Assembly: GCF_012933445.1 (NCBI RefSeq)
Contig: NZ_JABBNC010000008.1
Span: forward strand, 1-64,000
Direction: 5' to 3'
Source of the DNA: Actinoplanes sp. TBRC 11911
Lineage (GTDB): Bacteria > Actinomycetota > Actinomycetes > Mycobacteriales > Micromonosporaceae
DNA: 64,000 nt
The notes under the pieces were generated by a model. That model had not been told where the DNA came from, searched no databases, and saw only the letters and a list, made by a program, of their open reading frames with translations. Position 1 is the first letter of the stretch, and every line of letters starts with the position of its first letter. This document shows, in pieces, positions 8,118 through 38,690 of this stretch. A program made the translations under genes and the position numbers.

Positions 8118-8134
8118 CATCCACGTTGGATGAG
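8118..8134. promoter_or_regulatory. MalT-box-like palindrome, copy 1
   Basis: Perfect TCATCC-N5-GGATGA, followed by GG (GGATGAGG). It lies in the divergent region between the Rv1733c-like gene and the DUF6069-type gene, 55 bp before the latter's start. Confidence 0.75.
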
Positions 8135-8189
8135 GTGACCTCGGCGGCGGTCGGCGAGCCTCGCCTGGACACCCCCATCGGGAGGACTC

Positions 8190-8666
8190 ATGACCGAAAT
8201 GTATCGATCGTCGGCCGCACCCCCGCAGCCGGCGCTCAACGCCGGCAAGCTGTGGGCGGGCGGCCTGGCCACGGCGTTGCTCGCGGCGCTCATCGCGGTC
8301 GTCGGCATCGTGATCGGCCGCGGCCTGTTCGACGTGCAGGTGCTGGCCCCCAAGGGCGACGGTGTGTGGGGCGACGCCAGCACCTTCTGGTATGCGCTTG
8401 GTGCGGCCGGCGGCAGCCTGCTCGCGACCGCACTGGTCCACGTGCTGGTCCTGTTCGCGCCCAAGCCGATGCGCTTCTTCGGCTGGCTCATCGCGCTGGC
8501 GACCATCGGCGCGATGGCGGCGCCGTTCGCCACCGACCAGGAGACCGGATCGAAGCTCTACACCGCGCTGCTGAACCTGATCCTCGGCGTCGCGATCGGC
8601 TCGCTGGTCGCCGGCTCGGCCCGGGCCGCGATCCGGCCGGTCGCGCCGGCTCGCGCCTACCCGTAG
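8190..8666 (+). CDS. DUF6069-type four-helix membrane protein
   Basis: A 158-aa integral membrane protein with four predicted helices (about residues 22-44, 65-90, 96-114 and 122-145) and short polar ends. The pattern of an extracytoplasmic loop after helix 1 and F-F-G-W-L-I-A-L in helix 3 resembles DUF6069 proteins of actinomycetes. The function is unknown. The ATG at 8190 follows a GGGAGGA ribosome site, and a palindrome of the local regulon ends 55 bp upstream. Confidence 0.65.
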   Translation: MTEMYRSSAAPPQPALNAGKLWAGGLATALLAALIAVVGIVIGRGLFDVQVLAPKGDGVWGDASTFWYALGAAGGSLLATALVHVLVLFAPKPMRFFGWLIALATIGAMAAPFATDQETGSKLYTALLNLILGVAIGSLVAGSARAAIRPVAPARAYP

Positions 8667-8669
8667 CCC

Positions 8670-9158: not shown

Positions 9159-9163
9159 CCGGT

Positions 9164-9180
9164 TCATCCCGCTCGGATGA
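9164..9180. promoter_or_regulatory. MalT-box-like palindrome, copy 2
   Basis: Perfect TCATCC-N5-GGATGA followed by GG. It sits just after the stop of the preceding membrane-protein gene and 78 bp before the start at 9259, so it defines a new transcription unit. Confidence 0.75.
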
Positions 9181-9258
9181 GGCGGTCGCCGCCGCGCCCG
9201 GATGGGATCGCGGCAGCGCCGGCCATCCCGGGCGCCGCCGCAGCCTGAGGAGGACACG

Positions 9259-9774
9259 ATGGACGACAACAAGCTGACCTTCGGCCCGGGACAGGTGCGT
9301 GACGTCGCGGTGGGTGCCGTGGCCGAGGCCGAGGTGGTTTCCGTACGCGTGTTCGCCGTGATCCGCCGCGGGATGGCGGATCCGCGCGCGACGCTGAGCG
9401 GCGGCGCCGCCCTGGGCATGACCACCCTCCGCGCCCGGATCGCGGCCCTCGCCGAACGCGGCGCCGCCGAACGCGCCCGCGGCTGGGACTGGGCCACCGC
9501 GCGACTCAACGCCGCGGTCCGCTCCGTGGCGACCTCCCCGCCCGTCGACCGGGCCGTGGACGCGCAGCTCGAGCGCCTGCTGCGCCCGCTCGTCTCGACC
9601 GTGCTGGACGACATCCTGGAGATGCTGGAACGCGATCCGGAACGGATCCGGGCGCTGGTACGCAGCCAGCGCACCAGCATGGTCGACGAGCTCATGGACC
9701 GGGTCCGCTCGGGCGCCGCGGCCGGCGACCACAGCGTCGACCGGGTCACCTCGAAGGTGCTGGGCGAGCGGTGA
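9259..9774 (+). CDS. hypothetical protein, helical
   Basis: A 171-aa soluble-looking protein rich in Ala, Arg, Glu and Val, predicted mostly helical, with no membrane segment. The last 70 residues contain an amphipathic series (L-L-R-P-L-V-S-T-V-L-D-D-I-L-E-M-L). I do not recognise it. The ATG at 9259 is chosen because GAGGAGGA is at the right distance; an in-frame start at 9202 lacks a ribosome site. The stop overlaps the GTG of the RDD gene, so the two are coupled. Confidence 0.65.
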   Translation: MDDNKLTFGPGQVRDVAVGAVAEAEVVSVRVFAVIRRGMADPRATLSGGAALGMTTLRARIAALAERGAAERARGWDWATARLNAAVRSVATSPPVDRAVDAQLERLLRPLVSTVLDDILEMLERDPERIRALVRSQRTSMVDELMDRVRSGAAAGDHSVDRVTSKVLGER

Positions 9775-10256
9775 CGACCGCCGCGCGCCACGAGTATGCC
9801 GGGATCGTCAGCCGGTCGGTGGCGTACGTGGTGGATGCTCTGATCGTGGTCTTCGGCGTCTCCGGCGGGATCGCCGTGATGGGCGTGGTCGCCATGGTCG
9901 CCGGTGCGGCCGCGCGCGACATAGCCCAGGCGGCCGCGTCGGCGTACGTGTTCTTCCTGCCGGCCGTGCTGGCCGTCTACTGCGCGGTGTTCTGGCTGCT
10001 CGCCGGGCGCACCCCGGGAATGGCGCTGCTCGGCGTGCGGGTGATGCGCAGCGACGGGCGGCCGGTGGGCTGGCTCGGCGCGTTCGTCCGCGGCATCCTG
10101 CTGGCGCTGTTCCCGATCGGCTCGCTCTGGCTGCTCGTCGACCGGCGGCATCAGGCCGTGCACGACAAGGTGGTCCGCACCGTGGTCGTCCGCGATCCCG
10201 GGCCGTCATCCCGGCTGGATGAGGTACCCGTGCGGGCCGGATCGGAGGCGGTTTAG
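9771..10256 (+). CDS. RDD-family membrane protein
   Basis: A 161-aa protein of the RDD family: R-S-V-A-Y-V-V-D-A near the N terminus (the Arg-Asp signature), three helices, and the conserved G-R-T-P-G-M-A-L-L-G-V-R-V segment after helix 2. Some RDD proteins mediate Na+/H+ exchange, but no assignment is possible here. GTG start at 9771, overlapping the upstream stop. The C-terminal tail is encoded across a MalT-box-like palindrome, and the gene overlaps the end of the LAL regulator by 4 bp on the other strand. Confidence 0.8.
   Translation: MTTAARHEYAGIVSRSVAYVVDALIVVFGVSGGIAVMGVVAMVAGAAARDIAQAAASAYVFFLPAVLAVYCAVFWLLAGRTPGMALLGVRVMRSDGRPVGWLGAFVRGILLALFPIGSLWLLVDRRHQAVHDKVVRTVVVRDPGPSSRLDEVPVRAGSEAV
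10206..10222. promoter_or_regulatory. MalT-box-like palindrome, copy 3 (intragenic)
   Basis: Perfect TCATCC-N5-GGATGA followed by GG. Unlike the others it is not upstream of a gene; it is inside the last 50 bp of the RDD gene, facing the 3' end of the LAL regulator. It may be an auxiliary or decoy site, or may drive an antisense transcript. Confidence 0.6.
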
Positions 10257-12835
10257 AGCAGGCCGATCTGGTGCGCCCGGACCACCGCCTCGCGACGCCG
10301 GGCGGCACCGAGCTTGCGGTAGATCGAACGCATGTGGGCCTTGACGGTGTTGACCGAGATCTTGAGGTCCGCGGCGATCTCGTTCGCGGTCAGCACGCTG
10401 GGCAGGTACCGCAGGACGTCGCGCTCGCGGTCGCTGAGCGGCTCGGCCGGCGCCGGGGCCTGCCTGGCCGGGATCACGTCGGCCAGGATGTCGCCGGCGA
10501 CCGGGGCGACCGCTTCCTGCAGCCACTGCAACCGCTCGCCCAGCGCGGCCATCCGCTCGTTGTCGAAACGGTGGAACGGCCGTCGTACGCCTTCGGTCTC
10601 GGCCCGCGCGACCGCCCGCGCGAAGGCGTCCGCGGACTGACGGGCGTGCCCCTGCGCGTCGGCGATCAGCGCGGTCACCAGCCATGCGGTCGTCACCGAG
10701 ACCGCGTCGGTGCTCTCCCGGACCCGGGCGAGCAGGATCTCGGCCGCCGCGTACTCGCCGGACATCTCGTACGCGCGGGCGAGCATCACCTGTTCGGCCG
10801 GCAGCATGACCTTGCCGGCGGCGTACCGGTCGATGACGGCGTCGTGATCGCCCAGCGCGAGGTCGGCCTCCGCCTCGGTGAGCGCCAGCCAGCGGTCGAG
10901 CAGGGGGGCGACCAGCGGCCAGCGCAGCCACGTCCGGCACCGGTGCAGCAGATCCCGGGCGGCGACCGGTTCCCCGGTGGCGAGCAGCGTCTGGGCGCGC
11001 ACCATCGAGGCGACGACGCTCAACGTGGTCTCCGGCCGGTCGCCGGCGGCGTGCAGGCCACGGCGCAGGGCGTCCTGAGCCTCGGAGACCCGGTTGCGTT
11101 CCAGCTCGATCAACGCCCGGGTGAGGTGCGCCGCGGTCGACTCCACGGTCAGGCCGAGGTCGTGGCGGCGGGTCAGCTCGTCCACCGAGTCGATGTAGTG
11201 CTCCGCCTCGGTCAGCGAGCCCTGCAGGTAGACGAGCACGGCCAGATGGGCGTACGCGGTCATCTCGACGAGCTCGACGCCGGCGGTGCGCGCCGCGGCC
11301 GACGACGCCCAGAGGAACCGGTCGGCCAGGTCGGTGCGGCCGGACCAGAGCAGCCCGATGCCCTTGAAGCTCAACGTGATCGCACGGTATTGCAGCAGGG
11401 ACGGCAGCCGGTCCATCCGCATCGACCCGAGCAGCGCCAGGATCCGCGACGTGTCCTCGATCAGCGCGGGCATGTCGCCGTCCATCCGCGGCGCCACGAC
11501 GACGCCCATCACCGCGGCGGCGAGCTGCTGCGCCGGATCGCCGTCGATCATCGCGCCCACCCGGACGAGCTGATCGCGCACCCCGGCGTAGTCGCCGCCG
11601 GCGAACAGCAGCAGGGCGGCGCACAACGCGAGGTCGGCGTTGTCGGCGAGGTGCTCGGCCGGGATCCGGCGCAGGATGCCGACCAGCACGGCGCGCTCGC
11701 TCGACACGGCCATCGGCAGGGCGTGCTCGACCACCAGCCGGGCCAGGAACGGCCAGTCCCCGGCTTCCGCCGCGTGTTCCAGCGCGTCCCGGACACTGCC
11801 CTGCGCGGCGTACCAGGTGGCGGCGCGTACGTGCAGCTCGGTGACCAGGCCGGGCGAGCGTACGTCGGCCTCGTGGCGCAGCACGTCGCGCAGCAGGCCG
11901 TCGTAGCGGAACCACTGCCGTCCGGGACCGTCGCCGCGGCTCACGAAGCAGTTCGCCCGCTCCAGTCCCTCCAGGATCCCGGCAGCGTTCGGCGCCCTGG
12001 TCAGCGCCTCGGCCAGCGAGCCGCAGACGCGCTGGGCGACGCTCGTACGCAGCAGGAAGTCCCGGGTGTCCGGCGGCAGCGGATCGATCACCTCGCGCAT
12101 CAGGTAGTCCCGGACGGTGTCCGGCCAGGTGCCGTCCGGCGCGGCCATCAGTGTGATGCCGACCGGCCATCCCTCGCTGCGTTCGACCAGCCGGGTGGTC
12201 TGGGCCAGCGACGCCGGCACACCGTGCATCATCAGCAGGTCACCCGCCTCCGGGATGCGGAACGCCAGCTGCGGCCGCCGGATCTCGGTGAGGTCGCCCT
12301 CGACGCGCAGCCGGTGCAGGGCGAGGTCCGGCTCGGTCCGGCCGGCCAGCACGACGCGGAGCTGATCCGGCAGGCCGGCCAGGAGCCGGGAAAGGCCGTC
12401 CAGCACCGGACCGGCGGGCAGGACCTGGACGTCGTCGAGGACCAGCACGGTCCGGGCGCTCAGGCCGGCGATCCGCTCGGTCAGCCACGGCGCGAACCCC
12501 TCGTCGCCGGGGCACAGCGGCAACGGGCCGCCGTCCGACGCGCCGAGCGCCGCCAGCAGGTGCGACCAGAAGGTGTGCGGGTCCGCATGCCGCGGTTCGA
12601 GGGTGAGCCAGGCGATCGGCGCGGGCACCATCTCCGCGGTGCTCCACGACGCGAGCAGGGCGGTCTTGCCCCAGCCGGCGCCGGCGCAGACCAGCGTCAC
12701 CGGCCGCCGCGTCGCCGCGTCCAGCGTGCGCAGCAGCCGGCGCCGGATGAGCAGGGTGCCCGGGACGCGCGGACGCCCCAGCCAGGCCGCGGTTCCGGCC
12801 TGGTGGGCGAGCGCGGCGTCGTGCGCGCCGTTCAT
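10253..12835 (-). CDS. LAL (MalT-like) ATP-dependent LuxR regulator 1
   Basis: An 860-aa large ATP-binding regulator of the LuxR family. Walker A G-A-G-W-G-K-T is at about residues 52-58 and Walker B L-V-L-D-D-V near 135. A long helical TPR-like sensor region covers about 350-780. The C-terminal HTH (about 795-860) starts L-S-D-R-E-R-D-V-L and has S-V-N-T-V-K-A-H as recognition helix, close to the T-I-K-T-H of E. coli MalT. Such proteins bind ATP plus an inducer, oligomerise and activate sigma-70 promoters. The ATG at 12835 follows a GAGGGGG ribosome site. I infer that it, or its paralog at 13975, reads the TCATCC-N5-GGATGA sites in this block. Confidence 0.9.
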   Translation of the reverse strand: MNGAHDAALAHQAGTAAWLGRPRVPGTLLIRRRLLRTLDAATRRPVTLVCAGAGWGKTALLASWSTAEMVPAPIAWLTLEPRHADPHTFWSHLLAALGASDGGPLPLCPGDEGFAPWLTERIAGLSARTVLVLDDVQVLPAGPVLDGLSRLLAGLPDQLRVVLAGRTEPDLALHRLRVEGDLTEIRRPQLAFRIPEAGDLLMMHGVPASLAQTTRLVERSEGWPVGITLMAAPDGTWPDTVRDYLMREVIDPLPPDTRDFLLRTSVAQRVCGSLAEALTRAPNAAGILEGLERANCFVSRGDGPGRQWFRYDGLLRDVLRHEADVRSPGLVTELHVRAATWYAAQGSVRDALEHAAEAGDWPFLARLVVEHALPMAVSSERAVLVGILRRIPAEHLADNADLALCAALLLFAGGDYAGVRDQLVRVGAMIDGDPAQQLAAAVMGVVVAPRMDGDMPALIEDTSRILALLGSMRMDRLPSLLQYRAITLSFKGIGLLWSGRTDLADRFLWASSAAARTAGVELVEMTAYAHLAVLVYLQGSLTEAEHYIDSVDELTRRHDLGLTVESTAAHLTRALIELERNRVSEAQDALRRGLHAAGDRPETTLSVVASMVRAQTLLATGEPVAARDLLHRCRTWLRWPLVAPLLDRWLALTEAEADLALGDHDAVIDRYAAGKVMLPAEQVMLARAYEMSGEYAAAEILLARVRESTDAVSVTTAWLVTALIADAQGHARQSADAFARAVARAETEGVRRPFHRFDNERMAALGERLQWLQEAVAPVAGDILADVIPARQAPAPAEPLSDRERDVLRYLPSVLTANEIAADLKISVNTVKAHMRSIYRKLGAARRREAVVRAHQIGLL

Positions 12836-13428: not shown

Positions 13429-13434
13429 GATCGA

Positions 13435-13893
13435 TCACCCCTTTCCCGCGGTTACCGGCGCGGTCTCGGCCTCGGTGGCGTCCAGTGCCGCCAGAATCGC
13501 CTGGACGTGGATCCGCCCGCCGGCGACCAGTTGCGCCCCGGCCCGTCGCAGCGCGGTGGCCAGCGGCGCGGCCCACAGGTTCTCGTAGACCATGATCACC
13601 GCGGTGGCGCCCGGGGTGAGCACCGCCTTGGCCTCCTCGAGGTCGTCGCCGCCCAGGATCCCGGACGACGCGCCGTGGAAGACGCCGAGCCCGGACTCCT
13701 CCAGCTCGTGCCGGTCGATGACGACGATCGAGCCGTCCCGGCCGCGACGCACGAACATCATGTCCAGCACCCGGATGATCCCCCGGTCGACGAGGTCCAC
13801 CAGCCGCGGCAGCGCTTCGCCGTTCAAGCCGCCCGGCGGGAACTCGACGCAGAGGTAGTCGACCGGCCCCATCTGCTGTAGATCGTCGGTCAT
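13435..13893 (-). CDS. DUF6325-family protein
   Basis: A 152-aa protein beginning near G-P-V-D-Y-L-C-V-E-F-P, the hallmark of DUF6325 proteins, followed by G-I-I-R-V-L-D-M-M-F-V and a conserved I-M-V-Y-E-N-L-W-A segment. It is related to the DUF1269 fold and probably a two-lobed alpha/beta protein. The function is unknown. ATG at 13893 with GGAAGGGGAA upstream. A degenerate MalT-like half-site is about 60 bp upstream. A second, diverged family member is at 19144. Confidence 0.8.
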   Translation of the reverse strand: MTDDLQQMGPVDYLCVEFPPGGLNGEALPRLVDLVDRGIIRVLDMMFVRRGRDGSIVVIDRHELEESGLGVFHGASSGILGGDDLEEAKAVLTPGATAVIMVYENLWAAPLATALRRAGAQLVAGGRIHVQAILAALDATEAETAPVTAGKG

Positions 13894-13950: not shown

Positions 13951-13967
13951 TCATCCCGGGCGAAGGA
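13951..13967. promoter_or_regulatory. degenerate MalT-like half-site
   Basis: TCATCC with N5 and then GAAGGA instead of GGATGA, between LAL regulator 2 and the DUF6325 gene, about 58 bp upstream of the latter. On the minus strand the intact half reads GGATGACG. Functional status is uncertain. Confidence 0.4.
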
Positions 13968-13974: not shown

Positions 13975-16626
13975 TCAGATCAAATTGAGCGAACGGGCCC
14001 GCCGCACCGCCTCGTTACGGCGCGACGCGGACAACTTGCGCAGGATGCTGCGCACGTGCGTCTTCACCGTGTTGATCGAGACGAACATGGACGCCGCGAT
14101 CTCCTCGGTCGGCAGCATGGCCGCCATCCCGCGCAGCACCTCCAGCTCGCGCTTGCTCAGCGACTCGACCAGCACCGGGTCGGTGTTGCGCTCGGCGCTC
14201 TCCCGCGCCGAGGCCTCGCTGGGCGCGCCCAGCGCGTGGTATTCGACCACCAACTCGTCGTCCTCGCGCAGCACCCGGCGCAGCTGGGTCCAGGCCTGGT
14301 TGAGCATCCGCCGGTGCGCCTCCGGGGCGGCGGCGCGCAGGGCACGGCGCAGCGACTCACGCGCCGCCGGCACGTCGTCCATCCCGGCCGCGCGCATCGC
14401 CAGCAGCAACCACGCGTCCACGGCGACCGGCGCGGTCACCCGCGAGCTGTCGGCCACGGTCCGGACGATGTCGTACGCCTGTTGCGACTCCCCGCCGGCC
14501 AGCAGCAACGCCGCGCGCACCACCGACACGTCCGGCTCGCGGGAACCGGCCAGCCGGTCGAGCAGCTCGCGAGCCTCGTCCAGGTGACCCGCGGCAACCG
14601 TCATCCGGACCCGGGCCAGCAGGTTCTCCCGGACCAGCCACTCGGGCGCGCCGCGCACCGCCTCGGCCTCGCGCAGCACCCGCATGGCACCGCGCAACTC
14701 GCCGCGGGCCTGCAGCCGCCGGCTCTTCACGATCGCGAACGCGGCCACCGCGGTCGGGTCGCCGCCCGACCGGCAGCGCGGCTGCGCGATGCGCAGATGC
14801 CGATCGGCGGCCTCGACGTCGTAACGCTCGAGCTCGATCCAGGCGAGCGCGAGCCGGCCCGCGACCGGACGGCGCTGCACGGTCAGCCCGTGCTGTTCGG
14901 CGAGCTCGATGGCTTGCCGGGCGAGCGTCTCGGCCCGGTTCAGATGACCGCGGTATGCCTCGATCAGGGCGAGCCGGCCCATCGAGTCGATCTTCGGAAG
15001 CTCGCAACCCGGCTCGGCGCCGGAGATCGCCGCGGTGAAGCTGGCCGCGGCCCCCTCGACCGCGCCGGCCCGGCTCTGCACGACACCCTTCGCGGCGAGC
15101 AGCAGCACCGGCAGCTCGGGATGGGCGTCGCGATGCTCCGCCGGCAGGACGGCGAGCAGCGTCTCGGCCTCCCGGATCGCATCGGCCACCACGTCGGCGT
15201 CCCCGGCGACCGCCGGGTGGACCTGGACGAGCAGCCGGGCCAGCCGGAGAGCGTCATCCTCGCCTCCGCTGAGCCGAGCGCACCGCTCGGCGTACCCGGC
15301 TGCCGCCTCACCCAGGCCGTCGGCGACCGCGAGTGCGGCTCGCACGACGGCGGTCTCGGTGCCGTCGGCCGTCTCCGGCATCGTCCGGAAGACGCCGCCC
15401 AGCCGCCCCCGCATCCCGTCGGTCACCAGCTTGCCGACCGCGTGCGCCCCGACCACGATCCGGGCCGCCTCGGTCCAGTCACCGGCCCGCGCGGCATGCC
15501 CGGCGGCCTCGGTGACCGCGCCGCGTTCGGCCAGCCACTGCGACGCCCGCAGGTGCAGCCCGCGCCACTGGTCCGGTTCCTCCCAGGTCAGCTGGGCGCG
15601 CAGCAACTCCGCGAACAGGCGGTGATAGCGATACCGGCCGGTGCCGCCGCCGACCGGTTGGATGAACGCGTTCTCCCTGGTCAGGTTCATGAGAATGCGC
15701 CGTGCGTCGCAGCGCCGGGTGACCGCCTCGGCCAGCTCCGGCGTGAAGTCGTCCAGCACGCTGGTCTCGACCAGGAACCGGCGTACCTCGCTCGGCTGGG
15801 TGCGCAGCACCTCGCCGATGAAGTATTCGGCGATGGTGGTGTCGTCGCCGGAGAGGGTCGCGACCACCTGCTCCGGGTCCCGGTGGCTCTGCAGGGTGCT
15901 GGCGCACAGACGCAGGCCGGCCGCCCAGCCCTCGGTGTGTTCCAGCAGGGCCGCGAGGGCGTAGTCGCTCAGCTTGACGTCGTGCAGGTCGAGCAGCCGT
16001 GCGACCTCGTCGGCGTTGAACGCCAGGTCGCCGCTGCGGATCTCGGTGAGCCCGCCGGCCAGGCGGTACCGGTACAGCGGCAGCGGCGGGTCCCACCGGC
16101 CCACCAGGACCAGCCGTAACCGCTGGTCGGCGTGCCGGAGCACGAACTCGAGATCGGCGGCCCACTCGCGGCCGTCGAGCTGGGACACGTTGTCGAGCAC
16201 CAGCACGATCGGGCGGGGCAGCTCGCCCAGGGCGGCGGCGAGCCGGCCCAGCGAGGAGCGTTCGAGCGACTCGGACGGAACCAGCGCGGGCAGCTCGGCC
16301 AGCGACGGCGCGGCCCGGCGCAGAGCTTCGATGACGTACGTCCAGAAGCTCGACGGCTGGTCGTCCTCGTTCTCCAGCGTCACCCAGGCGGGCGCGTCGG
16401 CCGGTGCCCGGCCCGCGGCCCAGGACGCGACGAGCTGGGTCTTGCCGCATCCGGCCGGGCCGGTCACCACGGTGATCGGTTCCTGGGCACCGGCCGCCAG
16501 CCGGGCGACGAGCCCGGGGCGCGCGACCCAGAACGGTGGTGCCTCCGGGGTCGCAAACTTGGATTCAAGGATGGGACTTTCCGGATATGTCGTCGATGCC
16601 TGCGGAGCGATCATGTCGATGGTCAT
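13975..16626 (-). CDS. LAL (MalT-like) ATP-dependent LuxR regulator 2
   Basis: An 883-aa paralog of the regulator at 10253. Walker A G-P-A-G-C-G-K-T is at residues 56-63, Walker B I-V-L-V-L-D-N-V near 140, then a long helical repeat region. The C-terminal LuxR HTH (about 818-883) contains L-S-K-R-E-L-E-V-L and S-I-N-T-V-K-T-H-V-R as recognition helix. The domain order is that of MalT and AcoK. The ATG at 16626 is the first in frame. Its promoter has only a poor copy of the palindrome (16642-16663). Together with regulator 1 it brackets the DUF6325-SHOCT unit. Confidence 0.9.
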   Translation of the reverse strand: MTIDMIAPQASTTYPESPILESKFATPEAPPFWVARPGLVARLAAGAQEPITVVTGPAGCGKTQLVASWAAGRAPADAPAWVTLENEDDQPSSFWTYVIEALRRAAPSLAELPALVPSESLERSSLGRLAAALGELPRPIVLVLDNVSQLDGREWAADLEFVLRHADQRLRLVLVGRWDPPLPLYRYRLAGGLTEIRSGDLAFNADEVARLLDLHDVKLSDYALAALLEHTEGWAAGLRLCASTLQSHRDPEQVVATLSGDDTTIAEYFIGEVLRTQPSEVRRFLVETSVLDDFTPELAEAVTRRCDARRILMNLTRENAFIQPVGGGTGRYRYHRLFAELLRAQLTWEEPDQWRGLHLRASQWLAERGAVTEAAGHAARAGDWTEAARIVVGAHAVGKLVTDGMRGRLGGVFRTMPETADGTETAVVRAALAVADGLGEAAAGYAERCARLSGGEDDALRLARLLVQVHPAVAGDADVVADAIREAETLLAVLPAEHRDAHPELPVLLLAAKGVVQSRAGAVEGAAASFTAAISGAEPGCELPKIDSMGRLALIEAYRGHLNRAETLARQAIELAEQHGLTVQRRPVAGRLALAWIELERYDVEAADRHLRIAQPRCRSGGDPTAVAAFAIVKSRRLQARGELRGAMRVLREAEAVRGAPEWLVRENLLARVRMTVAAGHLDEARELLDRLAGSREPDVSVVRAALLLAGGESQQAYDIVRTVADSSRVTAPVAVDAWLLLAMRAAGMDDVPAARESLRRALRAAAPEAHRRMLNQAWTQLRRVLREDDELVVEYHALGAPSEASARESAERNTDPVLVESLSKRELEVLRGMAAMLPTEEIAASMFVSINTVKTHVRSILRKLSASRRNEAVRRARSLNLI

Positions 16627-16663: not shown

Positions 16664-16763
16664 ACGCTTGTTCACCCGAGGGGCACGCACATCGTTCGGA
16701 TCGGATAATTCGAGGCCGCAACCTCGCACTTTTCGCAGTTGGCGAAGCTTGAAGCGTCCAGAA

Positions 16764-17383: not shown

Positions 17384-17400
17384 TCATGCGGAACGGATGA
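17384..17400. promoter_or_regulatory. MalT-box-like palindrome, copy 4
   Basis: TCATGC-N5-GGATGA in the DUF1269/membrane-protein divergent promoter. Read on the minus strand the gene-proximal half is GCATGAGG, so its GAGG extension faces the DUF1269 gene, 61 bp away. Confidence 0.65.
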
Positions 17401-17411: not shown

Positions 17412-17428
17412 TCATCACGCGCGGGTGA
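17412..17428. promoter_or_regulatory. MalT-box-like palindrome, copy 5
   Basis: TCATCA-N5-GGGTGA followed by GG, 56 bp before the start at 17485. It is 28 bp centre to centre from copy 4, so each divergent gene seems to have its own site. Confidence 0.65.
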
Positions 17429-18852: not shown

Positions 18853-19076
18853 GAGAGCGCTACGTGCTTAGGATCCGCGGCATCATCGGCCCGCTGCTGC
18901 GGATCTCGCTCGGCAACGTGCATTATCGCGCGGTGCCGTGCCAGACGACGATCACCGGGGCGCTCTCCGAGGCCGCTCTGCACAAACTGCTCACCCGGCT
19001 CGACGAGTCCGGCCTCGAGGTCGTTCACCTGCAACGATTCCCGCTGCGAGCGGACACGCTCACTCCCGCCGGATGA
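18849..19076 (+). CDS. 75-aa small protein, paralog of the 28346 gene
   Basis: A 75-residue protein coupled to the preceding membrane protein by ATGA overlap. The pattern is Y-V-L-R-I-R-G-I-I-G-P-L-L, T-T-I-T-G near the middle, and L-H-K-L-L-T-R-L-D-E-S-G-L-E-V-V-H-L-Q-R-F-P toward the end, a likely beta-beta-alpha-beta fold. The 72-aa product at 28346 has the same pattern, so these are paralogs. The function is unknown. The stop codon TGA lies within the next palindrome (GGATGA). Confidence 0.7.
   Translation: MRERYVLRIRGIIGPLLRISLGNVHYRAVPCQTTITGALSEAALHKLLTRLDESGLEVVHLQRFPLRADTLTPAG
19060..19076. promoter_or_regulatory. MalT-box-like palindrome, copy 6
   Basis: TCACTC-N5-GGATGA, 67 bp before the start at 19144. 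The right half contains the stop codon of the upstream gene. Confidence 0.6.
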
Positions 19077-21132: not shown

Positions 21133-21149
21133 TCATTCCCCGCGGGTGA
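21133..21149. promoter_or_regulatory. MalT-box-like palindrome, copy 7
   Basis: TCATTC-N5-GGGTGA, 57 bp from the DUF2252 start, in the DUF2252/MFS divergent promoter. Confidence 0.6.
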
Positions 21150-21152
21150 CAG

Positions 21153-21169
21153 CCATCCGTGGCGGGTGA
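21153..21169. promoter_or_regulatory. MalT-box-like palindrome, copy 8
   Basis: CCATCC-N5-GGGTGA followed by GG, 53 bp before the MFS start. It is 20 bp centre to centre from copy 7, which would place the two sites on about the same helix face. Confidence 0.65.
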
Positions 21170-24021: not shown

Positions 24022-24038
24022 TCATCCGGTCCGGATGA
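24022..24038. promoter_or_regulatory. MalT-box-like palindrome, copy 9
   Basis: Perfect TCATCC-N5-GGATGA followed by GG, 87 bp before the APC permease start. A second palindrome (GGGCACGATCGTGCCC) lies between it and the gene. Confidence 0.75.
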
Positions 24039-29486: not shown

Positions 29487-29503
29487 TCATCCCGGCGGTA
29501 TGA
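29487..29503. promoter_or_regulatory. MalT-box-like palindrome, copy 10
   Basis: TCATCC-N5-GTATGA with GG/CC extensions on both sides (CCTCATCC...TATGAGG), in the M48/lipid-kinase divergent promoter: 34 bp from the kinase start and 61 bp from the M48 start. Confidence 0.65.
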
Positions 29504-32479: not shown

Positions 32480-32496
32480 TCACCCCGGACGGATGA
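32480..32496. promoter_or_regulatory. MalT-box-like palindrome, copy 11
   Basis: TCACCC-N5-GGATGA followed by GG, 58 bp from the amidotransferase start and 35 bp before the likely YihY start. An ATG in frame with the YihY gene lies inside the right half (GGATGAGG); using it as start would put the operator in the coding sequence. Confidence 0.65.
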
Positions 32497-32531: not shown

Positions 32532-33416
32532 GTGACAAGCCCGAGCGAACCGCAGGTGCGGCTGGACGCGGTGCCGCGCCGGCTGCGCCCGCTCGCCGAG
32601 GCGGTCCTCGCGCACCGGCTGGGCGCCCTGCTGCTGCGGGTCACGGGCGAGCTGATCCGGGTGCAGATCTTCGACCGCGCGATGACGCTGGCCGCGCAGG
32701 CGTTCACGTCGATCTTCCCGATTCTGATCATGTTGAGCGCCCTGTCCGGCGTCGCCGTCCGCAAGTGGGTCAACGACCGGCTCAACCTGCCGGCGCAGAG
32801 CGAACGGCTGCTGCAGGAGGCGCTCGGCGGCAGCAACAGCAACGCGTTCGGGATCGTGGGCGCGCTCATCGTGGTCGTCTCGGCCACCGGCCTGGCCCGG
32901 GCACTGACACGGGCGTATCGGGTCATCTGGATGGTGCCGGCGCGCAAGGCCGGACCGGCCGCGACCGGGCTGCAGGTTCTCTCGGTCCTGATCCTGGCCC
33001 TGTTCGTGGTGGCGATCCGGCTGCTCGCCGATCTGACCGACAAGTTCCCGGAGCCGCGCCTGGCCGGGGCGGCCGTCACGCTGGTGGCCGATCTGGCGGT
33101 CGCGGTGGCCCTGCCGCTGATGCTGCTCGGCCCGCTGGTGGTGGCGCGGTGGCGGCTGCTGGTGGCCGGCGCGATCTTCGGCGGCATGATGATCGCGGTG
33201 CGCGCGGCCGGCGACGTGTACCTGCCGCGCGCCATGGTCAGCAGTTCGGAGAAGTACGGCACGATCGGCCTGGCGTTCACCTACATCGGCTGGCTGTACG
33301 TGCTCTCGTTCGCCCTGCTGCTGGCCGCGATCGTGGGCAGCGTCGTCACCGCCCCCCGAACACCCCCCGCATCCCCCGGGCCAGCAGATCCGGACCCGAC
33401 AGACCCTCGAACATGA
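32532..33416 (+). CDS. YihY/BrkB-family membrane protein
   Basis: A 294-aa membrane protein with six predicted helices. It shows the YihY/BrkB layout: D-R-A-M-T-L-A-A-Q-A-F-T-S-I-F-P near helix 1 and G-T-I-G-L-A-F-T-Y-I-G-W-L-Y before the last helix. Family members are inner-membrane proteins often tied to envelope stress; the former label ribonuclease BN is wrong. The start is uncertain: GTG at 32526 or 32532, or ATG at 32493. A Pro-rich tail overlaps the 3' end of the glycosidase gene by about 70 bp on the other strand. Confidence 0.8.
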   Translation: MTSPSEPQVRLDAVPRRLRPLAEAVLAHRLGALLLRVTGELIRVQIFDRAMTLAAQAFTSIFPILIMLSALSGVAVRKWVNDRLNLPAQSERLLQEALGGSNSNAFGIVGALIVVVSATGLARALTRAYRVIWMVPARKAGPAATGLQVLSVLILALFVVAIRLLADLTDKFPEPRLAGAAVTLVADLAVAVALPLMLLGPLVVARWRLLVAGAIFGGMMIAVRAAGDVYLPRAMVSSSEKYGTIGLAFTYIGWLYVLSFALLLAAIVGSVVTAPRTPPASPGPADPDPTDPRT

Positions 33417-35997
33417 CCGGGAAGATCGCCACCAGCCCGGTCCAGCCGGTCTGGTGCGAGGCGCCGAGCCCGGCACCGTTGTCACCGTGGAAATACTCGG
33501 AGTAAGTGATCAGATTCCGCCAATGCTCGCTCGCGAAGATGTCCATGCCGCCGTGGCAGGGCCGGTGGCCGGCGTCGTCCGGCACGAACACCCGGGTGAG
33601 CCGGTCGCCGATCTCGCGGGCCACCTCGAACAGCGTCATCTCGTTGCCGGATCCGGTCGGGCACTCCACCCGGAAGTCGTCGCCGTATCCGACGTAGAGG
33701 TTCAGCAGCGCCCGGACGAGCAGCGTGTTCACCGGGAACCAGACCGGCCCGCGCCAGTTGGAGTTGCCGCCGAACATCCCGCTGTCCGACTCGGCCGGCC
33801 GGTACGCGACGGTGTAGCTGTGGTCGCCCAGGTTCAGCGATAACGGTTCCGCCGCGTGGTGCCGGGACAACGAGCGGATCCCGTACGGGCTGAGGAACTC
33901 CTCCTCGTTGAGCAGGCGCGCGAGGATGCGGCGCAGCTGCGTCTCGTCGAAGAGCGTGAGCAGCCGCCGCTGGTGGTCGTCGGCCGCCCGGCCGGTCCGC
34001 AGCACCGACGCCACCTCGGGGTGGTCGGCGAGGAACGCGCGCACCTCCGTCATGATCCGCGGGTGCCGCTCGACGACCGCGGGCTCGAGCACGGTGACCG
34101 CGGCCAGCGGCAGCAGACCCACCATCGAGCGCACCCGCAGCCGGGTCGCGCCGCCGTCCGGCAGCCGCAGCAGGTCGTAGAAGAAGCCGTCCTGCTCGTC
34201 CCACATGGCCGCGCTGCCGGTCTCGTGGGCGACCGCGGTGGCGATCCAGACGAAGTGCTCGAAGTAGGTCAGCGCCTGCTCCACATAGCTCTCGTCGTCC
34301 TCGGCGAGCTCCAGCGCGAGCTGCAGCATGCCCTGGCAGTACAACGCCATCCACGCGGTGCCGTCGGCCTGGTCCAGATGGCCGCCGGTGGGCAGCGGCG
34401 CGCTGCGGTCGAAGACGCCGATGTTGTCCAGCCCCAGGAAGCCGCCCTGGAACACGCTGCGGCCGTCGACGTCCTTGCGGTTCAGCCACCAGGTGTGGTT
34501 GGTGACCAGCTTCTGGAAGACGCGTTCCAGCCAGGCGCGGTCGCCACGGCCGGTGCGGGCCCGGTCCAGCTCGTACACCAGGTACGCGGCGTTCGCGTGC
34601 ACCGGCGGGTTCACGTCGCCGAAGTTCCACTCGTACGCCGGGATCTGCCCGTCCGGGTGCAGGTAGCGGCGGCTCAGCAGCAACTCGATCTGCGCCTTCG
34701 CGAACGCCGGGTCCACCACGCTCAGCGCGATCGCCTGGAACGCCAGATCCCAGGCCGCGAACCACGGGTACTCCCAGGTGTCCGGCATCGAGATCACGTC
34801 GTGCGCGTTCAGGTGGAACCAGGAGCCGTTGCGCAGGTCGCGCGCGTCCAGCGGATCGCGTCCGTGCTCGGTCAGCCACTGCTGCACGTCGTACTCGAAA
34901 TACTGCTTGCTCCACAGCATCCCGGCCATCGCCTGGCGCACCACCCGGCGCCGATCCGGGTCCAGCCCGGGCCCGATCAGCTCCTGGTAGAACTCGTCGG
35001 CCTCGGCGCGCCGCCGGTCCACCACGGCGTCGAAATCGCTCTGGTCGCCGACGTGCTCGCTGAGCCGCACCCGCACGGTTTGCTGACCGCCCGCGGGCAC
35101 CGTGAGGGTGATGTCGGCGGCCGCCTTGGTGCCGGTCCCGGCCGGGTTCACCGCGTCGGTCTCGCCGTGCACCACAAGCCGATCAAAACCGTCCTTCCCG
35201 TACGGCGTACCCGCGCTCTCGTTGTCGGTGAAATGGACGGCCTCGTCGCCGAGACAGATCCAGTACCGGGTGCCGAGCCGTTCGTGCGTCGCCTCCACCA
35301 CGGACAGCCCGGCCGGCCCGTCCACGCGGCGCAGCAGCGGCTCCTTGCCGGCCCCGCCGGACCAGGTGTTGCGCCACCAGACGGTGGGCAGCAGACGCAG
35401 CGTGGCCGGCTCCGGCCCGCGGTTGTGCACGGTGATCCGCGCCAGCAGGTCCTCCGGAGCGGCCTTCGCGTACTCCACCTCGACGTCGAAATAACGGTCC
35501 TCCGCGAACACCCCGGTGTCCAGCAGCTCGTACTCGAAGTCCTCGCGGCCCCGCGCCCGGTTGGTCTCGATCAGATCCAGGTACGGGAACTCGGCCTGCG
35601 GATACTTGTAGACCATCCGCATGTACGAATGGGTGGGCGTCCCGTCCAGGTGGAACCAGTATTCCTTGACGTCCTCGCCGTGGTTGCCCTCGCCGTTGGT
35701 CAGCCCGAAGAACCGCTCCTTGAGGATCGGGTCCCGCCCGTTCCACATCGCCACCGCCAGGCACAGCAGCTGCCGGTCGTCGCTGAACCCGGCGATGCCG
35801 TCCTCGCCCCAGCGGTACGCCCGCGACCGTGCCTGGTCGTGGCTGAGGTACGCCCAGGCCTCGCCGTCGGCGCTGTAGTCCTCGCGGACCGTCCCCCACT
35901 GCCGGTCGCTGAGGTAGGGCCCCCACCGCCGCCACGGCACCTGATCGTTATCGGCCTCGGCCAGTCGTCGCTGTTCGGCACCCAGTTCGTCCGTCAT
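33346..35997 (-). CDS. GH63/MGH1-type glucosidase
   Basis: An 883-aa protein without a signal peptide. The C-terminal two thirds is an (alpha/alpha)6 barrel like GH63 mannosylglycerate hydrolases and glucosidases: W-A-W-D-L-A-type motif (P-W-F-A-A-W-D-L-A-F-Q), P-A-Y-E-W-N-F-G-D-V-N-P with the likely catalytic acid, and W-R-G-P-V-W-F-P-V-N near the end. The N-terminal third is a beta-sandwich beginning W-R-R-W-G-P-Y-L-S-D-R-Q-W-G-T-V. It probably removes glucose from a compatible solute or oligosaccharide in the cytosol, an osmotic or starvation function. ATG at 35997; two palindromes lie upstream. Confidence 0.85.
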   Translation of the reverse strand: MTDELGAEQRRLAEADNDQVPWRRWGPYLSDRQWGTVREDYSADGEAWAYLSHDQARSRAYRWGEDGIAGFSDDRQLLCLAVAMWNGRDPILKERFFGLTNGEGNHGEDVKEYWFHLDGTPTHSYMRMVYKYPQAEFPYLDLIETNRARGREDFEYELLDTGVFAEDRYFDVEVEYAKAAPEDLLARITVHNRGPEPATLRLLPTVWWRNTWSGGAGKEPLLRRVDGPAGLSVVEATHERLGTRYWICLGDEAVHFTDNESAGTPYGKDGFDRLVVHGETDAVNPAGTGTKAAADITLTVPAGGQQTVRVRLSEHVGDQSDFDAVVDRRRAEADEFYQELIGPGLDPDRRRVVRQAMAGMLWSKQYFEYDVQQWLTEHGRDPLDARDLRNGSWFHLNAHDVISMPDTWEYPWFAAWDLAFQAIALSVVDPAFAKAQIELLLSRRYLHPDGQIPAYEWNFGDVNPPVHANAAYLVYELDRARTGRGDRAWLERVFQKLVTNHTWWLNRKDVDGRSVFQGGFLGLDNIGVFDRSAPLPTGGHLDQADGTAWMALYCQGMLQLALELAEDDESYVEQALTYFEHFVWIATAVAHETGSAAMWDEQDGFFYDLLRLPDGGATRLRVRSMVGLLPLAAVTVLEPAVVERHPRIMTEVRAFLADHPEVASVLRTGRAADDHQRRLLTLFDETQLRRILARLLNEEEFLSPYGIRSLSRHHAAEPLSLNLGDHSYTVAYRPAESDSGMFGGNSNWRGPVWFPVNTLLVRALLNLYVGYGDDFRVECPTGSGNEMTLFEVAREIGDRLTRVFVPDDAGHRPCHGGMDIFASEHWRNLITYSEYFHGDNGAGLGASHQTGWTGLVAIFPVMFEGLSGPDLLARGMRGVFGGR

Positions 35998-36033
35998 GGA
36001 TACCTAGCGTTCGGCCGGCCCGCCTCCCGGTCG

Positions 36034-36050
36034 TCATCCGGCGGGGATGA
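36034..36050. promoter_or_regulatory. MalT-box-like palindrome, copy 12
   Basis: Perfect TCATCC-N5-GGATGA (in fact GGGGATGA, matching the longer MalT consensus), 36 bp from the glucosidase start in the divergent promoter with the DUF7144 gene. Confidence 0.75.
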
Positions 36051-36059
36051 ACCGGCCGT

Positions 36060-36076
36060 TCACCCCGCTCGGGTGA
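36060..36076. promoter_or_regulatory. MalT-box-like palindrome, copy 13
   Basis: Perfectly symmetrical variant TCACCC-N5-GGGTGA followed by GG, 61 bp before the DUF7144 start and 26 bp centre to centre from copy 12. Confidence 0.75.
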
Positions 36077-36137
36077 GGTAGCGCGGCGCGCGGTGGGCGA
36101 CCGTCGGGACGACGCACCGACAACCCGGAGGACGACC

Positions 36138-36584
36138 ATGACGCACACCGAGTCCCAGCGGGCGACAACCGACCCGTCATATCCCGTCCAGCGGACACCG
36201 CAAGTGACCCCCTGGGTCGGCATGGTGGTCTTCGCGGGCACCATGCTCATGCTGCTCGGCGGCTTCCAGATCTTCCAGGGCCTGGTCGCCCTGATCCGGG
36301 ACGACTTCTACGCGGTCACCCGCACCGGGCTGCTGCTGGAACTGGACTTCACCGCCTGGGGCTGGATCCACCTGGTCATCGGGGTGATCGCCATGATCAC
36401 CGGTGTCGGCGTGCTGGCCGGCCAGATGTGGGCGCGCGTGATCGGCATCATCATCGCCGGCCTCAGTGCCCTGGCCAACCTCGCGTTCCTGCCCGCGTAC
36501 CCGATCTGGTCCACCATCATGATCGCCCTGGACGTGCTGGCGATCTACGCACTCGCGGTACACGGCCGTGAGGCCCGGTACTGA
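36138..36584 (+). CDS. DUF7144-type four-helix membrane protein, copy B
   Basis: A 148-aa paralog of the protein at 27415, with the same four helices and motifs: W-V-G-M-V-V-F-A-G, W-G-W-I-H-L-V-I-G-V, G-Q-M-W-A-R-V-I-G and A-N-L-A-F-L-P-A-Y-P-I-W. The C terminus A-L-A-V-H-G-R-E is shared too. The N terminus (H-T-E-S-Q-R-A-T-T) differs. ATG at 36138 with GGAGGAC upstream; an in-frame start at 36093 has no ribosome site. Overlaps the AI-2E gene by 17 bp. Confidence 0.85.
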   Translation: MTHTESQRATTDPSYPVQRTPQVTPWVGMVVFAGTMLMLLGGFQIFQGLVALIRDDFYAVTRTGLLLELDFTAWGWIHLVIGVIAMITGVGVLAGQMWARVIGIIIAGLSALANLAFLPAYPIWSTIMIALDVLAIYALAVHGREARY

Positions 36585-37746
36585 GGGGACGTCCCTGCCG
36601 CGCGGGGTGATCGTGCTGCTCGGCTGCGCGACCCTGGTGGTCGTCGTGGCCGGGATGCGCGGCGTGGCCGGGATCATCGGGCCGGTCTTCCTCGCCCTGA
36701 TGCTGACGGTCACGGTGAGCCCGCTGACCGGCTGGCTGCGCCGGCGGGGCGTCCCGGTCTGGCTCGCGACGCTGGCCACCATCCTGACCTCGTACGCGAT
36801 CCTGGCGCTGCTCGGCGGTGCCCTGGTGATCTCGATGTACCGCCTGGTCGGCCTGTTGCCGGAGTACGAGCAGCAGTTCGCCAACCTCCGTAATGATGTC
36901 ATCGCGCAGCTGAACAACATCGGGATCAGCACCCAGCAGGTGCGCGACTGGATCTCCGGCGCGGACCCGCGCACGATCGCGAACTGGGTCGAGGCGCTGG
37001 CCGGCGGGCTGGCGAGCCTGCTGTCGAACACCGTCTTCCTGCTCGCCGTGCTGCTGTTCATGTGCATCGACGCGGTGAACTTCCCGGCCCGGCTGCGCTC
37101 GGTGGCCGGCGATCGGCCGCAGGTCGTCACCGCGCTCCGCTCGTTCTCCCAGGGCACCCGGCGCTACCTGCTCGTCTCGACCATCTTCGGGCTGATCGTC
37201 GCGGTCGTCGACACCCTGCTGCTGTGGGCGCTCGACGTGCCGCTGCCGGTCCTCTGGGGACTGCTGGCGTTCATCACCAACTACATCCCGAACATCGGCT
37301 TCATCATCGGCCTGGTGCCGCCGGCGCTTCTCGCCCTGCTGCAGGGCGGGGTGGAGCTGATGGTGACGGTGATCGTGCTGTACTGCGTGGTCAACTTCGT
37401 CATCCAGTCGGTGATCCAGCCGAAGATCGTCGGTGATGCGGTCGGCTTGTCCGCGACCGTGTCGTTCCTGTCGCTCGTGTTCTGGGCCTGGGTGCTCGGC
37501 GCGCTGGGCGCGCTGCTGGCGATCCCGCTGACGCTGCTGGCCAAGGGGCTGCTCGTGGACGTCGATCCGTCGACCACCTGGATCAACGCGTTGCTGTCCG
37601 GTGGCGCCGCCCCGAAGGCCGAGGCAGCCCCGAAGGCCGCGCCCGAGGAATCCTCGCCCCACCGGGATGAGGCACCTCCGGCGCCCGAATCCCACGATGG
37701 TGCCGCATCACCACCCCTTACCAAATCCCCTGGGAGTACGGCATGA
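36568..37746 (+). CDS. AI-2E-family transporter
   Basis: A 392-aa membrane protein of the AI-2E exporter (UPF0118) family, with about seven or eight helices. The conserved loop N-Y-I-P-N-I-G and the G-D-A-V-G-L-S segment before the last helices are typical. Members have been linked to autoinducer export and also to Na+/H+ antiport; the substrate here is open. The C-terminal 60 residues are a Pro/Ala/Glu-rich tail, and a palindrome of the regulon lies within its coding sequence. GTG start at 36568. Confidence 0.85.
   Translation: MRPGTEGTSLPRGVIVLLGCATLVVVVAGMRGVAGIIGPVFLALMLTVTVSPLTGWLRRRGVPVWLATLATILTSYAILALLGGALVISMYRLVGLLPEYEQQFANLRNDVIAQLNNIGISTQQVRDWISGADPRTIANWVEALAGGLASLLSNTVFLLAVLLFMCIDAVNFPARLRSVAGDRPQVVTALRSFSQGTRRYLLVSTIFGLIVAVVDTLLLWALDVPLPVLWGLLAFITNYIPNIGFIIGLVPPALLALLQGGVELMVTVIVLYCVVNFVIQSVIQPKIVGDAVGLSATVSFLSLVFWAWVLGALGALLAIPLTLLAKGLLVDVDPSTTWINALLSGGAAPKAEAAPKAAPEESSPHRDEAPPAPESHDGAASPPLTKSPGSTA
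37654..37670. promoter_or_regulatory. MalT-box-like palindrome, copy 14 (intragenic)
   Basis: TCGCCC-N5-GGATGA followed by GG. It is inside the 3' part of the AI-2E gene but 72 bp before the DUF1269 gene at 37743, the usual distance, so it may serve an internal promoter. Confidence 0.55.
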
Positions 37747-38237
37747 CCACGTTCACGGTGTGGAAGTTCGACGACCCGCAAGGTGCGCAGAAAGCCGAAA
37801 CCATCCTGGAGTACGCCGCGGCCGACGGGCTCGTGAAGATCGTCGATCACGCGGTGGTCACCTGGCCGAAGGGCGAACCGCAGCCCAAGACCGAGCACAA
37901 GCACGACGACCGCCGGCGCGGTACCGGCTGGGGCGCGCTCTGGGGCCTGATGGTCGGCACGCTCTTCCTGGTGCCGGTGGTGGGCGCCGCGGTGGGCGCG
38001 TCGATCGGCGCGATCAGCAAGGCCACCGAGGGCACCGGCATCCGGCGCGAGGATCTCGAGAAGATCCGCACGAGCATCACCGAGGGCACCTCGGCCCTGT
38101 TCCTGGTGACCGAGAACGCCGATCTGGACCGGCTCGGCGAGCGGTTCCACGGGCTGCCGAAGACGTTGGTGACCACCAACCTCACCGACGCCGAGAGGGA
38201 CGTGCTCATGGAGACCTTCGGCGGCACCAGCCACTAA
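37743..38237 (+). CDS. DUF1269-family protein, copy B
   Basis: A 164-aa paralog of the product at 16810. It has V-W-K-F-D-D-P-Q-G-A at the N terminus, the central zipper G-W-G-A-L-W-G-L-M-V-G-T-L-F-L-V-P-V-V-G-A-A-V-G-A and then E-G-T-S-A-L-F-L-V-T-E-N. The identical P-K-G-E type loop before the hydrophobic hairpin is a DUF1269 feature. The start overlaps the AI-2E stop (ATGA). Function unknown. Confidence 0.85.
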   Translation: MTTFTVWKFDDPQGAQKAETILEYAAADGLVKIVDHAVVTWPKGEPQPKTEHKHDDRRRGTGWGALWGLMVGTLFLVPVVGAAVGASIGAISKATEGTGIRREDLEKIRTSITEGTSALFLVTENADLDRLGERFHGLPKTLVTTNLTDAERDVLMETFGGTSH

Positions 38238-38690
38238 CCGTATGTAGTCGTACGGTCACGGAAACAACTGCAGGTCACGGGGCACGCCCGGTGAGTCCGT
38301 AATGCTCCCGTTCGCCATAATCGGCACTCACAGTGATGACCAAGGGCGCTCATCCGTGGCGGTGAATGGGGCCGGGCCTTCGACGGCGGCGCCCGGACGG
38401 GCCACAACATCGACGTGGATCCATCATGACCAGCGGACGGGTCAGCAAACCGCGACGGTCCAAGAGCGTCAAGAACGCACCTGCGTCGAATAATCCGCCT
38501 ACTGGAAAGCGTCAGACAACGACGGACACGCTGTGCGACATGGGTTGCCGAGGCAGGGCTTGCGTGAGAACTTGCCCTGCATTGGCCCTACTCGTGACTG
38601 CCCGCCTTTGCCTGAAGCCGGAGGGCTCGTTTCGACCGAGCCGGCCGGTTCGATGGGTTGGTATGGCACCCAACGAAACAGAGAGTGGAG
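38238..38690. other. intergenic, last part of the regulon block
   Basis: About 450 bp without a supported gene. It starts with a weak hairpin (ACCGTA-N8-TACGGT at about 38240-38259) that could end the DUF1269 transcript. It also holds a one-base-deleted copy of the palindrome at 38350-38365. Short open frames here have no domain or ribosome site. Confidence 0.45.
38350..38365. promoter_or_regulatory. degenerate MalT-like site
   Basis: TCATCC-GTGGC-GGTGA: identical to copy 8 except for loss of one G in the right half. It is about 325 bp from the next start, so probably a decayed site. Confidence 0.35.

Follow-up and report, generated by a model that had tools for sequence, protein, structure and literature searches.

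A palindrome with a fixed five-base spacer as the probable operator of a MalT-family regulator in Actinoplanes

Introduction

LAL proteins are numerous in actinomycetes, and we know of exact operators for few of them. The first 64,000 nucleotides of contig NZ_JABBNC010000008.1 from Actinoplanes sp. TBRC 11911 (assembly GCF_012933445.1; this whole stretch is called the window here) contain a block of 30 kb in which the palindrome TCATCC-N5-GGATGA recurs ahead of many genes, and the same block encodes two MalT-like LAL regulators, LAL1 and LAL2. What is this palindrome, and which protein would act on it? A preliminary description of the window, made from its letters alone, proposed a single regulon run by the LAL proteins of the block. 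Here, we examine the palindrome in the window, in the whole genome and in related actinobacteria. We find it probable that a transcription activator of the MalT family (STAND/LAL) uses it as its operator, with LAL2 the best candidate for that activator.

Results

Abundance of the palindrome in the window and genome

The perfect palindrome occurs five times in the window, starting at 8117, 9164, 10206, 24022 and 36034. The same five copies, and a fully symmetrical variant at 36060, had been listed in the preliminary description, where the first start was given as 8118 instead of 8117. Counting sites with zero, at most one and at most two mismatches gives 5, 9 and 17 in the window, against means of 0, 0.095 and 2.2 and maxima of 0, 2 and 8 in 200 dinucleotide shuffles of it, and the block holds eight of the nine sites with at most one mismatch. 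At up to three mismatches there is no clear excess, as 29 sites are found where 22.5 are expected and 8 of 100 shuffles contain at least 29. The signal therefore sits in the good sites, and degenerate copies need other support. Within the block there are 16 sites with at most two mismatches, or 15 after setting aside the one at 29647, which lies within a gene and looks like chance. An earlier tally of fourteen copies plus three degenerate ones fits these 15. The copy at 38350 has three mismatches, and nothing was found in its support.

Across the whole genome (9.66 Mb in 97 contigs) there are eight perfect copies, five of which are those of the block, and 26 copies with at most one mismatch, compared to a single match for the reversed control pattern. 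The one-mismatch copies include C34:354516, C67:99568 and C89:68293 (contig and position). The site at 42923, which has at most one mismatch and lies in the window outside the block, was rejected as an operator as it forms part of a dispersed repeat of approximately 180 bp. This repeat (window positions 42870-43052) has inverted arms, TCTCCAAGGTCTCGA, includes a TCATCC-N5-GGACGA look-alike, and is found again at C25:91416 and C4:317 of the same genome with 74-78% identity. A separate repeat was seen in a genome of the same order (G078, family f5), where near-identical copies of TCATTCCAGGTGGATGAGG or its complement are present on 11 contigs; these are probably pieces of a repeated element and not this operator.

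Conservation and fixed spacing in relatives

For comparison we used regions around LAL genes from 20 relatives, each 40 kb long (one is 27 kb), of which 18 belong to the genus Actinoplanes and two to another family of the order. With the half-sites five bases apart, these 20 regions contain 153 sites at no more than one mismatch, whereas every alternative spacer length between N0 and N12 yields 0-7, and 59 other permuted half-sites give 24 at best, with a median of 0. Sites with at most one mismatch are intergenic in 123 of 162 cases (window included), in regions where genes mostly take up about 90% of the DNA. On the gene side, the extension GGATGAGG, noted in the preliminary description, can be seen in the window and recurs in relatives, with G at 53% and 71% of the relatives' sites at the two positions right after GGATGA. 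Both consensus half-sites are GGATGA and equal the MalT box, quoted as GGA[TG]GA in the available text of PMC9628970, so that the likeness to MalT boxes drawn earlier is borne out.

Promoter geometry

A second element accompanies the palindrome at a fixed distance. In 369 gene-oriented rows, the -10-like hexamer xAxxxT lies at offset 39 (counted from the palindrome's first base) in 156 rows and at offset 40 in 104, relative to a mean of 9.6 per offset, which places it 22-23 bp 3' of GGATGA. The commonest hexamers are GACGCT, GACGAT and GACCGT, corresponding to a -10 that keeps just its A and last T. At one-sided sites the hexamer is found on the facing side in 26 of 37 and on the opposite side in 9 of 37, with an intergenic background of 4.6%. 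Divergent intergenic sites with at most one mismatch (80 scored) carry the element on both sides in 41 instances, comprising 8 of 18 perfect sites and 33 of 62 with one mismatch. Strict exclusion of T from the hexamer's first base was considered and dropped, since the depletion is just weak (5/305 versus a background of 4.6%).

The start codon is positioned with similar regularity. ATG falls at offset 51 in 82 and at offset 52 in 37 of 305 oriented promoters, compared to a mean of 4.3 per offset; further ATG peaks at offsets 43 (45 cases) and 40 (24 cases) were rejected as starts because they overlap the hexamer, and the rows had been selected for its A and T. As ATG lies where transcription is expected to begin if the hexamer is a -10, many target genes read as leaderless. 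This layout is seen in the window downstream of the sites at 29487 (to 29538), 36034 (to 35997) and 8117, the last being 36 bp from the GTG start at 8081 of the minus-strand gene 7512-8081. Given the fixed hexamer offset and the ATG at the inferred start, the palindrome would be centred near -43. Operators of class-II-type activators are centred near -41 to -45, and the offsets of 39/40 to the -10 and 51/52 to ATG fit such a geometry, with start sites inferred from sequence. Four things can be read directly from the genomes compared: the operator itself, the constant distance that separates it from the -10 and from ATG, its conservation, and its joint occurrence with LAL2-type genes (below).

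This geometry bears on two rival explanations. Lying at the -35 region at a fixed distance from the -10, the palindrome could itself be the -35 element of an alternative sigma factor. However, it is palindromic and bidirectional with a fixed N5, and the 22-23 bp from GGATGA to the -10 exceed the usual -35/-10 spacer of 16-19 bp, making a sigma factor element extremely unlikely. We give just as little credence to an RNA element, such as a hairpin, attenuator or messenger RNA stabiliser, or to a dispersed mobile repeat. An RNA fold with a 6-bp stem and a 5-nt loop is possible and the look-alike at 42923 is indeed repeat-derived, but the palindrome precedes the -10, which puts it outside the inferred transcript, and in many cases it serves genes in both directions. 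In addition, there is little conservation other than that of the site and the -10, and leaderless genes have no 5' untranslated region.

LAL2-type genes track the motif

The presence of two MalT-like LAL genes in the block, already recognised in the preliminary description, is confirmed by Pfam matches. GerE is found in both (55.7 bits in LAL2, 56.7 in LAL1), and TPR_MalT scores 63.5 bits in LAL2, over the cut-off of 45, and 44.5 in LAL1, just under it. Residues 20-386 of LAL2 align with the MalT chain 8bob (E 1.1e-35), identifying a STAND module. A loose first look returned between 60 and 208 LAL candidates per Actinoplanes genome, not all of which are true LALs.

In order to relate the motif to these genes, matches including the GG extension, at no more than one mismatch and with both strands summed, were counted in 47 congeners. 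The 28 congeners with LAL1 (E<1e-140) have a median of 14 matches (range 6-41), compared to 2.5 (range 0-14) in the 16 lacking a LAL1-query match (p 1.5e-7), and the three intermediate congeners G002, G045 and G046 have 8, 11 and 8. Of the intermediate genomes, G045 and G046 have LAL2 (55% and 47% identical) and retain the motif with no LAL1 ortholog among their matches, and G002 has a LAL2-like gene (39%). Fourteen of the 16 congeners without LAL1 also lack a LAL2-query match, and these have 0-6 motif matches. The outlier G031, with 14 matches and no LAL1 match, has pieces of LAL2 on a contig with five motif copies, and G026, with five matches and no LAL1 match, has a LAL2-like gene. In other families of the order, motif clusters adjoin LAL2-like genes (G193, G288 and G092), some of those in G092 and G288 also containing LAL1-type or undecided LALs.

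As controls we used 20 hand-picked regions around other LAL genes. Nine of them, around other LALs, have no exact site. Another nine surround LAL1-like second copies, and sites with a -10 are found in just one of these, L196, which has four; by the same measure, regions with the motif carry 2.5-8 such sites per 20 kb. The remaining eight second-copy regions, L197-L204, all from Actinoplanes, have no operator with a -10, and LAL1-like second copies therefore probably use a different target sequence. Because the motif tracks LAL2-type genes, the controls are mostly poor in it and clusters in other families adjoin LAL2-like genes, we favour LAL2 as the binder. The earlier proposal that the LALs of the block are the regulators is thus upheld insofar as motif number tracks LAL genes, and would be narrowed to LAL2 as the best candidate, not both proteins equally.

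Alternatively, the binder could be LAL1, or a mixed LAL1-LAL2 assembly comparable to the BldM-WhiI heterodimers. LAL1 neighbours LAL2 in most Actinoplanes regions, their helix-turn-helix (HTH) sequences are similar, motif number correlates with LAL1-query matches (Spearman 0.87, the matches including LAL2-type genes), and L196 combines LAL1-type genes with four sites. Nevertheless, in G045, G046, family f16 and the Streptomyces loci described below, the operator has LAL2-type genes alone for company in views of 20-40 kb, and eight of the nine second-copy regions lack a site with a -10, so that we consider LAL1 as binder improbable. LAL1 may instead help LAL2 or compete with it. Covariation of HTH residues with the base (T or C) at position 4 of the half-site was also examined but set aside; the pattern caught 25 of 80 loci, few of them from Streptomyces, and phylogeny confounds the groups. 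Finally, among 20 LAL2-type rows, 12 show a related TTATCC/TAATCC...GGACGA site with a -10 ahead of LAL2, which suggests that LAL2 may be autoregulated; the variant in the window falls outside these 12.

Distribution beyond the genus and relation to BldM

Named genomes were scanned with a LAL2 alignment and the best 80 of 483 matches used, 62 of which fall outside the listed Micromonosporaceae. These 62 loci are mostly from Streptomyces, and also from Kitasatospora, Kutzneria, Actinomadura, Pedococcus, Cellulomonas and others. Among them, the operator is present in 54. Exact TCACCC-N5-GGGTGA occurs 93 times, compared to once each for N3, N4 and N6, and the -10 stands at the same two offsets as in Actinoplanes (49 and 37 of 186 oriented rows, the next best offset having 8). 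In the 12 loci that were laid out gene by gene, homologues of the DUF7144, DUF2252, lipid-kinase-like, amidotransferase and MFS proteins are often beside the sites. Of 249 genomes sampled across the order, 16 (counting that of the window) have a strict pattern of site plus -10, several of them in a single copy only, and the reversed control was found in none.

The half-site GGGTGA is shared with a known regulator. The BldM Group I regulon of Streptomyces has a footprinted palindrome, TCACcCgnncGgGTGA, built from this same half-site (PMC4125116, PMC8914203). BldM is an atypical response regulator of the NarL family with the same type of HTH. The sites of the block could accordingly be BldM (or BldM-WhiI) sites and the block a developmental regulon. 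In contrast to the 17 bp (N5) of the block, the BldM palindrome spans 16 bp (N4), and BldM is not a STAND protein. In the 20 regions, N4 gives 4 sites and N5 gives 153 (TCATCC, at most one mismatch), and in the 62 loci the exact TCACCC form gives 1 and 93, respectively. Furthermore, exact TCACCC-N4 sites number 2-11 in each of 28 congeners (7 in the window's own genome) irrespective of LAL content, whereas the number of TCATCC-N5 sites tracks LAL genes and the sites cluster around them. A weaker point is that exact TCACCC-N5 is nearly absent from nine LAL-less congeners (0, 0, 1, 0, 0, 0, 0, 0 and 1); counts in 19 others are 0-6, five of these also being 0, and the form is a weak marker by itself. 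We therefore judge it quite unlikely, even more so than LAL1 as binder, that the sites belong to BldM. Because N4 sites ignore LAL content while N5 sites track LAL genes, two regulons using one half-site appear to coexist, one base of spacing apart.

Sites and target genes of the block

The individual sites are listed in Table 1. At the DUF1269 promoter (17384) and its orthologues, TGGCTGACT recurs 3' of the operator in place of the usual -10 spacing, and is perhaps an alternative arrangement. The preliminary description held that almost every promoter of the block is marked, which is somewhat too strong, given that the copy at 10206 lies in convergent gene tails.

Table 1 Putative operators and LAL genes of the block
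Feature	Position	Direction	Comment
Putative operator, perfect	8117..8133	both directions	-10 on both sides; serves divergent 7512-8081 (-, Rv1733c family) and 8190-8666 (+, DUF6069)
Putative operator, perfect	9164..9180	+	faces 9259-9774 (+, no Pfam/NCBIfam match); xAxxxT absent at usual offset
Perfect palindrome, orphan copy	10206..10222	.	convergent 3' ends of RDD gene and LAL1; -10 on neither side
LAL1	10253..12835	-	second MalT-like LAL regulator, ~34% identical to LAL2; role uncertain
Putative operator, 2 mismatches	13951..13967	-	gene-facing half intact, -10 present; faces DUF6325 gene 13435-13893 (-)
LAL2	13975..16626	-	MalT-family STAND ATPase, MalT-like TPR, C-terminal LuxR/GerE HTH
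Variant putative operator TTATCCGATCCGAACGA, 3 mismatches	16692..16708	-	ahead of LAL2
Putative operator, 1 mismatch	17384..17400	-	faces DUF1269 gene 16810-17322 (-); no xAxxxT at usual offset
Putative operator, 2 mismatches, -10	17412..17428	+	faces 17485-18852 (+, no family match)
Putative operator, 2 mismatches, -10	19060..19076	+	faces 19144-19680 (+; weak DUF6325 likeness, under Pfam cut-off)
Putative operator, 2 mismatches	21133..21149	-	faces DUF2252 gene 19681-21075 (-); no -10 at usual offset
Putative operator, 2 mismatches, -10	21153..21169	+	faces MFS gene 21223-22710 (+)
Putative operator, perfect, -10	24022..24038	+	faces amino-acid permease gene 24126-25604 (+)
Putative operator, 1 mismatch	29487..29503	both directions	-10 on both sides; serves divergent M48 peptidase 28583-29425 (-) and diacylglycerol-kinase-like 29538-30827 (+, leaderless layout)
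Putative operator TCACCC-N5-GGATGA	32480..32496	both directions	-10 on both sides; divergent class-II amidotransferase 31585-32421 (-) and YihY/BrkB-like (+, start uncertain, to 33416)
Putative operator, perfect, -10	36034..36050	-	faces MGH1/GH63-like glycosidase 33346-35997 (-, leaderless layout)
Putative operator, fully symmetrical TCACCC-N5-GGGTGA, -10	36060..36076	+	faces DUF7144 gene 36138-36584 (+); form found at Streptomyces loci
Putative operator, 2 mismatches, -10	37654..37670	+	within 3' end of AI-2E-type transporter gene; faces DUF1269 gene 37743-38237 (+)

To score targets in the 20 regions and the window, a gene was taken to have a site if one with at most one mismatch, or with two mismatches and a -10, lay within 250 bp. 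By this measure, sites are found with one or more members in 30 of the 40 largest protein families, and in 17 families with half or more of the members. Sites precede every M48 peptidase (19/19) and lipid-kinase-like gene (16/16), 16 of 17 members of the 19144 family, 17 of 21 of the 17485 family, 14 of 18 GH63-like genes and 13 of 17 amidotransferases. Homologues of the 17485-18852 protein occur in all 21 regions, window counted. The remaining ten of the 40 families have no member with a site, for example family number 11 (0/17).

Contrary to the preliminary statement that no copies exist outside the block, perfect copies with a -10 are found elsewhere in the genome, at C7:169326 before a DUF7144 homologue and at C15:51682 before a DUF1269 homologue. 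In addition, C49:50516, which has no -10, precedes a homologue of the 19144 protein, and C23:23913 is perfect with no -10. Sites with a -10 at C49:47652, C12:538032, C19:18687 and C56:293986 face genes without an assignment. Copies inside genes (C14:57039 and C49:39178) or with no called gene near (C20:64646) look like chance. It is likely, from this genome-wide distribution, that the regulon has members outside the block. An exact TCACCC-N5-GGGTGA with a -10 also lies 5 kb past the window at C78:69109-69125 (L186:5109), facing a gene of 625 amino acids; its 17 letters are identical to those of site 36060, and it marks a possible further regulon member. Overall, the motif is rare, clustered and mostly intergenic, not evenly spread over the genome, and it is kept before orthologous genes in relatives, all of which agrees with the proposal of one regulon and argues for it.

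Discussion

We propose that LAL2, once activated by a ligand and assembled, would set two GerE-type HTH domains on the outward-facing MalT-box halves GGATGA and TCATCC, which lie 5 bp apart. Centred approximately 43 bp upstream of the transcription start, next to the would-be -35 position, the operator would allow LAL2 to recruit RNA polymerase to a promoter whose sole remaining element is a weak -10 (xAxxxT, frequently GACGCT). Two divergent genes would often be driven from a single operator, and transcription would in many cases start at the ATG. Most of the putative targets are membrane and DUF proteins, and they would include DUF1269, DUF6325, DUF7144 and Rv1733c-family proteins, an M48 protease, a lipid-kinase-like protein, a glycosidase and transporters. 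Binding by LAL2, activation and the physiological role are the parts of this scheme that we infer.

Several observations weigh against this scheme. Rows from the 20 regions contain orthologous promoters and are not independent; the Streptomyces loci provide the independent check, although they are related among themselves. Two perfect sites of the window, 9164 and 10206, have no -10 at the usual offset. Of the 62 loci outside the listed Micromonosporaceae, eight have no site (L111, L114, L118, L121, L164, L165, L169 and L173), and L111, L114 and L169 are full length. Among the controls, the nine regions around other LALs have six imperfect sites with a -10 in total, L205, which includes a LAL2-like gene as well as five homologues of regulon members, has five sites with a -10, L206 has two with just one regulon homologue, and L196, with two LAL1-type genes and no LAL2, still has its four good sites. 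Of the 18 Actinoplanes regions taken around LAL1, 17 also contain LAL2, so that the parts played by the two are not cleanly separable. Finally, among 41 sampled genomes from other genera of the family, only one has the strict pattern, and the system is therefore patchy, if widespread among actinobacteria judging from the genomes sampled.

The maltose regulon of E. coli, with its maltose and maltodextrin targets and maltotriose as inducer, is the obvious reference, and MalT promoters have several boxes in varied arrays. In contrast, the block has a compact inverted pair with a fixed N5 at about -43, often common to divergent genes. No maltose uptake system is found among the Pfam matches of the block genes, the sole carbohydrate-related match being the GH63/MGH1-like glycosidase. 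What the two systems share is the regulator family (STAND, MalT-like TPR and GerE HTH) and the half-site GGA[TG]GA, the latter as given in the available text of PMC9628970. The same source describes a LAL protein of S. coelicolor, SCO6993, of 606 amino acids, that similarly binds palindromes and represses antibiotic regulators; its footprinted sequences differ from the operator of the block, and its authors were unable to predict a consensus, as far as the available text goes. Literature searches for a LAL regulon with an N5 operator or with these DUF families found none, with most subscription journals outside their coverage.

As to function, gene 7512-8081 belongs to the NCBIfam Rv1733c family. 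Mycobacterial Rv1733c is a dormancy-regulon antigen and DosR target, and this one gene is what the block has in common with the DosR/DevR dormancy regulon of mycobacteria, whose operator sequence and regulator class differ. Because the targets are mostly membrane proteins and include this Rv1733c-family member, our guess is that the regulon may have an envelope or dormancy/stress role.

If the assignment to LAL2 holds, one LAL subfamily would have a precise operator and promoter geometry, and DUF1269, DUF6325, DUF7144, Rv1733c-family and other orphan families would be tied into one response. We suggest more tentatively, as an attractive possibility of which we are not convinced, that a widespread regulon of membrane DUF proteins run by LAL2 is held apart from the BldM developmental regulon solely by a spacing code of N5 versus N4, which would let two large regulons exist side by side in the same cell. 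The locus would then provide a natural example of two GerE-type regulators sharing a half-site, with a single base of spacing to tell their sites apart.

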